Shown here: positions 1,114 through 2,537 of the stretch, in pieces
Layout: the number at the start of each line of letters is the position of its first letter
How positions within the stretch are numbered: position 1 is the first letter of the stretch
The notes under the pieces: generated by a model
Told to the model about the DNA's origin: nothing
Databases searched by the model: none
Seen by the model: only the letters and a program-made list of their open reading frames with translations
Made by a program: the position numbers and the translations under genes
Source: Longimicrobiales bacterium
GTDB lineage: Bacteria; Gemmatimonadota; Gemmatimonadetes; Longimicrobiales; RSA9
Length of the DNA: 52,831 bases
Assembly (NCBI GenBank): GCA_035461765.1
Contig: DATHUY010000148.1
Span: 1-52,831, forward strand
Direction of reading: 5' to 3'

Positions 1114-1142
1114 TTGACGTATGAACGGTCGGTAGTCATAAT
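1114..1142 (+). promoter_or_regulatory. Sigma-70-type promoter for metK
   Basis: TTGACG at 1114-1119 and CATAAT at 1137-1142 are separated by exactly 17 bases. Each hexamer matches the vegetative consensus at five of six positions. Transcription would begin near 1149, giving a leader of about 207 nucleotides before the metK start at 1356. Confidence 0.72.
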
Positions 1143-1149
1143 TCCGTCA

Positions 1150-1270
1150 CGCGCGGCGATTTTTCACCCGACTTGACGGGCCGCGCGCACGGGCCGAAAT
1201 CCGGCCGACGTAGAAACCGTCTAAGTCGCGGCAATCAGCCTGCGACGAACAGAGAGTCGCGGGCTTTTTT
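1150..1270 (+). promoter_or_regulatory. Structured metK leader with intrinsic terminator (candidate attenuator)
   Basis: Several helices can form in order. CGCGCGGC (1150-1157) pairs with GCCGCGCG (1180-1187). GGCCG (1192-1196) pairs with CGGCC (1202-1206), and GACG (1207-1210) with CGTC (1218-1221). Then GCCTGCGAC (1238-1246) pairs with GTCGCGGGC (1256-1264), followed by six T (1265-1270), which is a textbook intrinsic terminator. GTCGCGG (1225-1231) can instead pair with CTGCGAC (1240-1246), the same bases the terminator needs, so the two structures exclude each other. The terminator lies between promoter and start codon, so it should control metK rather than end another gene. I do not recognise any of the named SAM riboswitch classes; the signal could be a metabolite, a protein or translation. 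Confidence 0.6.
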
Positions 1271-1355
1271 GTGGCCGGCGATCCGACGGAAAAATGTAAC
1301 CGCACGCGTGAGCGGCTCGTTCGGAGCCGTGGCGCGGGAAGCAGAGGAATCGCCC

Positions 1356-2537
1356 ATGCCCATGTCCGGCAACGCACTCCAGTACACGTTCACCTCCGAG
1401 TCAGTCTCCGAGGGCCATCCCGACAAGGTATCCGACTACGTCGCGGACTCCATCCTGGATGCACACCTCGCGCAGGACCCGCGCGCGCACGTCGCGTGCG
1501 AAGTCCTCGTGAAGGAGGGCGACCTGATTCTCGCGGGCGAGATCACGTCGAATGCGGACGTCGATGTCGCTGCGATCGCACGCAGCGCGGTCCAGGAGAT
1601 CGGATATACGAACGAGGACGAGGCATTCTGCGCTCCGCGCATCAGAATAACGGACCTGTTGAGCGAGCAGGCACCGGAGATCGGCAACAGTGTGCGTCGC
1701 TCTCCCGCGGAGGCGCTCGATCAGGGTGCCGGCGACCAGGGCATCATGTTCGGCTACGCGACGGACGAGACGCCGGAGCTGATGCCGCTGCCGATCCTGC
1801 TGGCCCACCGCCTCGCCCGCGTTCTCGCGCAGCATCGCAAAGCCGGCACGGTCGGCTGGCTCCGCCCCGATTCCAAGACTCAGGTTTCAGTGCTGTACGG
1901 CCCCGACGGCCCGATCGAGGTGACGGACGTCCTCGTCTCGACCCAGCACACCCGCGACGTGCAGCCGGACGCGATCCGGGCCTTCATCGCGGAGACGATC
2001 GTCCCCGGCGCGCTCGGCGATTGGAACAACGCCGCGATCCGCCTGGTCGTGAATCCGTCCGGCAGCTTCGTGCAGGGTGGCCCCAGCGCCGATGCAGGCG
2101 TCACCGGCCGCAAGATCATCGTCGACACGTATGGCGGCATGGGCCGGCACGGCGGCGGCGCGTTCAGTGGCAAGGATCCTTCGAAGGTCGACCGCAGCGG
2201 CGCGTACTTCTGTCGCTTCGTCGCCCGCGAGCTCGTGGCCGCCGGCTTCGCGCGCCGCGCCGAGATCCAGGTGGCGTATGCGATCGGCGTCGCCCAGCCG
2301 GTGTCGGTGAAGGTCGACACGTTCGGTACCGGTGATGAGCGTGCGGCCGCCGACTTCGTGCGCGGCTTCGACTTCCGCCCGGCCGCCATCATCGACCGTC
2401 TCCAGCTGCTGCGGCCGATCTATCGCGCCACAACAAACTACGGCCACTTCGGCAAGCCGAGCCTGCCGTGGGAAGCCGGCAACGGCGCCGCAGTCGAGAT
2501 CGAGTCGTCCGTGGCCGCCGCCATCGCGGCCAGCTGA
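1356..2537 (+). CDS. metK: S-adenosylmethionine synthetase
   Basis: Makes S-adenosylmethionine from methionine and ATP in the cytoplasm. The 393-residue length is normal. SEGHPDK (18-24, ATP-binding His21), GAGDQG (124-129), GGGAFSGKDPSKVDRS (267-281, P-loop-like phosphate site) and IGVAQP (near 310) are all intact. The open frame extends upstream to 1173, but the family's N-terminus and AGAGGA just ahead of ATG 1356 support the start used here; ATG 1362 is the alternative. It is a single-gene unit: its promoter is at 1114-1142, a terminator-bearing leader precedes it, and an intrinsic terminator follows at 2622-2661. Confidence 0.98.
   Translation: MPMSGNALQYTFTSESVSEGHPDKVSDYVADSILDAHLAQDPRAHVACEVLVKEGDLILAGEITSNADVDVAAIARSAVQEIGYTNEDEAFCAPRIRITDLLSEQAPEIGNSVRRSPAEALDQGAGDQGIMFGYATDETPELMPLPILLAHRLARVLAQHRKAGTVGWLRPDSKTQVSVLYGPDGPIEVTDVLVSTQHTRDVQPDAIRAFIAETIVPGALGDWNNAAIRLVVNPSGSFVQGGPSADAGVTGRKIIVDTYGGMGRHGGGAFSGKDPSKVDRSGAYFCRFVARELVAAGFARRAEIQVAYAIGVAQPVSVKVDTFGTGDERAAADFVRGFDFRPAAIIDRLQLLRPIYRATTNYGHFGKPSLPWEAGNGAAVEIESSVAAAIAAS

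Follow-up and report, generated by a model that had tools for sequence, protein, structure and literature searches.

The window, the whole 52,831-nucleotide stretch analysed here, is contig C148 of a 4.68 Mb Longimicrobiales genome and carries that genome's one copy of metK. (Many relatives in families f1 and f3 have two metK genes, with approximately 60-80% and 55% identity to the window protein.) The gene is preceded by a leader in which a sigma-70-type promoter, a pseudoknot, an antiterminator and an intrinsic terminator follow one another closely (Table 1). An earlier note on this sequence had listed this promoter, stacked hairpins, a terminator with nine paired bases and six T, and a competing GTCGCGG/CTGCGAC pairing, all placed before the metK start, and each of these is borne out. 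The promoter is the sole promoter-like site between 900 and 1500, where 0.1 would be expected from shuffles. The minimum free energy fold of 1147-1271 reaches -53 kcal/mol (z -2.5; 1 of 200 shuffles folds as well), and the terminator stem has 10 bp in that fold, the nine described plus an A-U pair. The competing pairing is the fold predicted for an RNA that stops short of the 3' arm of the terminator. Inspection of the sequence finds neither ATG nor GTG in the stretch from promoter to terminator, and an ordinary leader peptide was therefore rejected as an explanation.

Table 1. Features of the metK leader and its gene (window positions), with the SAM-I-like aptamers found 3' of the variant in other contigs (positions of those contigs).
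Feature	Position	Strand	Remarks
Promoter, sigma-70 type, TTGACG-17-CATAAT	1114-1142	+	-10 box ends 7 nt before P1
P1 5' strand, CGCGCGGC	1150-1157	+	partner 1180-1187
L1, GAUUUUUCACC	1158-1168	+	expected major-groove third strand, a role suggested by SAM-V and SAM-II structures (PMC6061858, PMC3764141); UUU invariant in 50/50
P2 (pseudoknot) 5' strand, CGACUUGACGG, CGACUU-GACGG	1169-1179	+	partner 1217-1228
P1 3' strand, GCCGCGCG	1180-1187	+	abuts P2, without L2
Loop L3	1188-1216	+	contains P3
P3 hairpin, GGCCG-AAAUC-CGGCC	1192-1206	+	within L3; predicted fold
P2 3' strand, CCGUC-U-AAGUCG	1217-1228	+	bulged U1222, equivalent of SAM-II U44 and SAM-V U47
G1225, at the SAM-II A47 / SAM-V A50 position	1225	+	faces C1172; G in 50/50
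Antiterminator, 1225-1231/1240-1246	1225-1246	+	5' strand overlaps P2
Intrinsic terminator, 1237-1246/1256-1265	1237-1270	+	10 bp in fold, six T (T1265-T1270)
metK, methionine adenosyltransferase	1356-2537	+	TIGR01034, 478.7 bits
Divergent SAM-I (S-box) aptamer, L070	1328-1433	-	below Rfam cut-off
Divergent SAM-I (S-box) aptamer, L081	1657-1783		below Rfam cut-off
Divergent SAM-I (S-box) aptamer, L092	1654-1781		below Rfam cut-off
Divergent SAM-I (S-box) aptamer, L062	3296-3380		below Rfam cut-off
Divergent SAM-I (S-box) aptamer, G225:C4	32919-33040		below Rfam cut-off

Nested folding was rejected as a complete picture of this leader because it hides P2. Setting the metK leaders of relatives side by side reveals an H-type pseudoknot, in which P1 is joined by a P2 of 11 bp with one bulged U, and which carries the core elements of the SAM-II and SAM-V riboswitches: the L1 "UUU," the "UUG," and the "C-[U]-AA." About 50 members, nearly all of them single copy in their genomes, were collected with a covariance model (R1) built from four family-level leaders, by scanning GTDB contigs with a sequence pattern, and by searching 394 genomes belonging to the class. 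The contig scan gave 26 matches, 13 of them real Gemmatimonadota sites and the rest coding or chance; class placement of the relatives rests on its named contigs. The pattern CTTGRCGGG..CCGYCTAAG, run over 154 genomes of the order, gave four real sites and three chance-like ones. Two candidates (L114 and L115) were dropped as false positives because their P2 is broken.

Covariation was tested on a plain MAFFT alignment (A4) of 50 relatives, all from one class of Gemmatimonadota. Cells of P1 and P2 are paired in 97.7% of cases (99.1% for P2), compared with at most 46% for structures slid along the alignment. Two-sided changes occur in 10 pairs, comprising all eight of P1 and two of P2 (C-G to U-A or A-U; A-U to G-C or U-A), against 3.2 in shuffles, with none of 500 shuffles as high; the independent changes are fewer than the number of sequences, since most members come from a few related families. 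This conserved, covarying structure is what the earlier note had proposed to look for among relatives. The P3 hairpin is present in L3 of 48 of the 50 (mean z -3.1), a terminator lies just 3' of the aptamer in 44, and in 34 a promoter matching 8/12 or more stops 5-7 nt short of P1 (3.6% of shuffles). A second model (R2), built from all 50 members, matches 60 of 395 genomes in a sample of the phylum at E<=1e-4, every one within the same class. Its E-values in independent genomes go down to 1e-17, and the window genome holds a single copy.

That the leader matches no known SAM class model also holds. A search with all 4227 families of Rfam 15 gives no match at the locus at gathering score, and at E<=10 with permissive filters it gives only chance matches to miRNA, sRNA and viral families. 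The models for SAM-I/SAM-IV, SAM-III, SAM-VI and SAH have no match at the locus, nor do the two SAM-II models, RF00521 and RF01726 (the latter run over the whole genome). SAM-V (RF01826) has none at E<=10 in the whole window genome, and SAM/SAH (RF01727) has only chance-level matches elsewhere in the genome. Among relatives, the variant goes without an Rfam match at gathering score in all 18 searched and at E<=1 in all six searched.

In SAM-II, the fully conserved pocket consists of U10 U11 U12, U20 U21 G22 C23, and G42 C43 U44 A45 A46 A47; U44 pairs with the SAM adenine, the sulfonium lies opposite U11 and U21, and the contacts to the amino and carboxylate groups come from A47 (PMC3764141). 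The SAM-V pocket is arranged likewise, with U47 and an A50:A18 pair (PMC6061858). When numbering is transferred between classes by aligning the UUG and CUAA core, the equivalents of U10-U12, U20 U21 G22, and C43 U44 A45 A46 are invariant in 50 of 50 relatives. The A47/A50 position is G in every one, opposite C in 25 and U in 25. All 31 canonical-type SAM-II elements that were checked from these lineages keep an adenine there. Fifteen canonical elements that are tandem partners of the variant show A/A (14) or C/A (1) at the two positions, and A/A is also seen in the 16 elements that come first ahead of metK in f3 and its neighbours. (The equivalent of the SAM-II C23-G42 pair, whose G42 takes part in a base triple, is variable here: A-U, G-C, G-U or U-A in alignment columns 30 and 79.) The replaced base beside retained UUU, UUG and C-U-AA suggests a pocket rebuilt at its methionine end and preserved at its adenine and sulfonium end, and the variant would then either sense SAM in a new manner or detect a close SAM relative.

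The resemblance to SAM-II (RF00521, SAM_alpha; RF01726, long loops) takes in the H-type pseudoknot, a P1 beside the promoter, an L1 of GAUUU, a P2 with UUG / C-U-AA and a bulged U, a downstream terminator, and an association with met genes. Unlike SAM-II, the variant has an inner P2 of 5 bp instead of GC/GC, a P3 hairpin in L3, and G in place of A47, with C or U as its partner. With SAM-V (RF01826) it shares the pocket layout, a P3 in L3 (PMC6061858), an inner P2 longer than that of SAM-II, and occurrence in tandem with SAM-II (PMC9481103). It differs from SAM-V in replacing A50:A18 by G at 50 with C or U at 18, in acting on a terminator rather than on the ribosome site (in the window the metK start comes 125 nt after the aptamer), and in being found in Gemmatimonadota rather than marine alphaproteobacteria. 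The SAM/SAH riboswitch (RF01727) is likewise a small H-type pseudoknot before metK, but it holds its ligand between P1 and PK, lacks the UUU/CUAA pocket, and is translational (PMC7367207). We do not file the variant under SAM-II or SAM-V, because it lacks the A47/A50 adenine of those classes and the Rfam models do not recognise it; it is best read, from its sequence, as an unmodelled variant of the SAM-II/SAM-V superfamily. The earlier suggestion of a regulatory RNA, possibly of a new SAM- or SAH-responsive class, stands in part: an RNA controlling metK is strongly supported, but the fold, with its SAM-II/SAM-V layout, is not wholly new, and what appears to be new is the altered methionine-tail pocket and the added P3. 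We found no earlier description of the variant in the literature searched, and an unlabelled earlier report is possible.

The earlier note was right that terminator and antiterminator are mutually exclusive, as both use 1240-1246, but it missed P2, which shares 1225-1228 with the antiterminator; there are therefore three mutually exclusive pairings and not two. Their energies are -12.9 kcal/mol for the antiterminator hairpin, -14.5 for the P2 duplex, and -18.1 for the terminator hairpin. Of the 44 terminator-bearing relatives, 24 have an aptamer end able to pair over 6 bp or more with the 5' arm of the terminator, compared with 14% of shuffled arms; some relatives show a short or interrupted antiterminator overlap.

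What the analysis establishes directly is the promoter, the terminator, which bases of the pocket are kept, and the pairings together with their conservation. From these we infer the ligand binding, switch direction and triplex geometry of an OFF riboswitch that acts on transcription and has a pseudoknot like that of SAM-II and SAM-V, a reading to which we give a probability of about 0.83. Transcription would start beside P1, P1 and P3 would fold, and CGACUUGACGG would become able to pair with CCGUC-U-AAGUCG. The ligand, most likely SAM, would place its adenine at bulged U1222; its sulfonium would be flanked by the L1 UUU on one side and by the pairs U1173-A1224 and U1174-A1223 on the other. 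Bound ligand would lock P2, which would occupy 1225-1228 and block the antiterminator, so that the terminator would form and metK would not be transcribed; when ligand is scarce, the antiterminator should prevail and metK be read. An OFF switch of this kind has been proposed for SAM-II (PMC1273637). Within the OFF-switch reading, the ligand is probably SAM itself, and a close adenosyl relative takes up most of the remaining likelihood. The OFF-switch reading is favoured by the covariation, the invariant UUU, UUG and C-U-AA, the conserved switch overlap, the metK and metX/metY contexts with their neighbouring SAM-II and SAM-I aptamers, and the SAM-II elements before metK in family f3. Counting against it, several variant copies precede genes without a known tie to SAM, the C23-G42 equivalent is variable, the SAM-II and SAM-V models of Rfam give no score at the locus, and some relatives have the short or interrupted antiterminator overlap.

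Twelve of the 50 members precede metK, with no second aptamer noticed there, and about 18 precede metX or metY. Where the gene is metX or metY, the terminator of the variant is followed by a canonical SAM-II, which scores 38-45 bits with RF00521 in G359, G248, G215, G302 and G329. At least five members have a divergent SAM-I aptamer within about 150 nt downstream (RF00162, 22-42 bits), which is the best SAM-I match of its genome wherever the whole genome was searched; the scores are sub-threshold, yet the same spot in independent genomes favours the SAM-I assignment. (Similar downstream sequence, judged by eye only, occurs in further members.) The window genome also contains a single canonical SAM-II (46.2 bits), which lies upstream of a homoserine dehydrogenase-like gene.

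Family f3 relatives have a canonical-type SAM-II before the orthologous metK, often plus a second, long-P2 element with A at the key position. Nine of these leaders (L006, L008, L009, L010, L011, L012, L014, L016, L018) show the two SAM-II-type elements with a terminator-like hairpin after each, and Rfam reports neither element at gathering score. The second elements share with the window type a P2 of UUGGCGG / CCGCC-U-AA, a terminator, and metK, but they have A at A47/A50, a three-by-three internal loop (AGC/AGC), and a short L3 with no evident P3, where the window type has P3. They score weakly or not at all with R2. Relative to them, the window type is without three bases per strand at the place of AGC/AGC. 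In seven leaders (L005, L008, L009, L012, L016, L019, L020) the L1 of the first, canonical-type metK element reads GAGUU rather than GAUUU, with G as the first base of the UUU third strand.

The f3 comparison bears on a different reading, in which a SAM-II-derived switch has kept the adenosyl and sulfonium half of its pocket, has lost its recognition of the methionine tail of SAM, and instead reports a related metabolite (SAH, 5'-methylthioadenosine or decarboxylated SAM), making a two-input gate with adjacent canonical SAM aptamers. In its favour, both partners have changed in concert, to G at A47/A50 in all 50 members and to C or U opposite, the canonical elements of those leaders retain A/A, the AGC/AGC internal loop is missing from both strands in the window lineage, and tandems form with two other types of SAM aptamer. 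Against this, metK, metX and metY are classic SAM targets, and the groove edge of a G-C pair could still provide a binding contact for the SAM tail. There is precedent for a SAM aptamer variant with another ligand in the spermidine riboswitch (PMC10853860), but same-ligand tandems of SAM-II with SAM-V or with SAM-I/IV are also known (PMC9481103), and we consider the changed ligand improbable. Stated as an origin, the idea would be that a separate Gemmatimonadota class arose from the SAM-II/SAM-V pseudoknot by concerted replacement of the tail bases and now senses a different adenosyl metabolite, serving metK by itself and, at metX and metY, supplying the first input to a gate built from two aptamers; we regard this as speculative and rather doubtful.

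An attenuator that is constitutive, or whose termination answers to a protein or some other signal with no small-molecule ligand, would fit evidence that consists of structure and the lack of a match among Rfam models. An unpaired L1 UUU and a bulged U that are invariant in 50 of 50 relatives form a pattern expected of a small-molecule pocket, however, and the SAM-II/SAM-V layout and repeated tandems with SAM aptamers also make such an attenuator very unlikely. Chance hairpins in GC-rich DNA deserve mention in that 0.5 terminator-like sites are expected by chance in the region and the z-score of the fold is by itself modest. They are refuted by the covariation test and are further opposed by the R2 E-values in independent genomes.

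With this variant the SAM-II/SAM-V superfamily gains a branch that has had no model until now and that extends across a class of Gemmatimonadota. The branch amounts to a natural experiment on the A47/A50 contact with the methionine tail, with the base swapped in every member and the adenine and sulfonium side kept. Its tandems with canonical SAM-II and with SAM-I-like aptamers, which share a leader with it, may reflect either same-ligand redundancy or a two-metabolite gate.

The remaining members precede genes for a peroxiredoxin, an OsmC-like protein, or uncharacterised proteins, the last with no Pfam match among those tested. Seven loci (L051, L054, L058, L062, L093, L105, L108) have tandem or single copies before uncharacterised genes with no evident SAM link; the open reading frame downstream in L093 resembles an SNF2-type helicase. 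The genes immediately downstream of the variant in L075 and L095 encode an AhpC/TSA peroxiredoxin and an OsmC-like protein, contexts that may hint at a redox or sulphur link.
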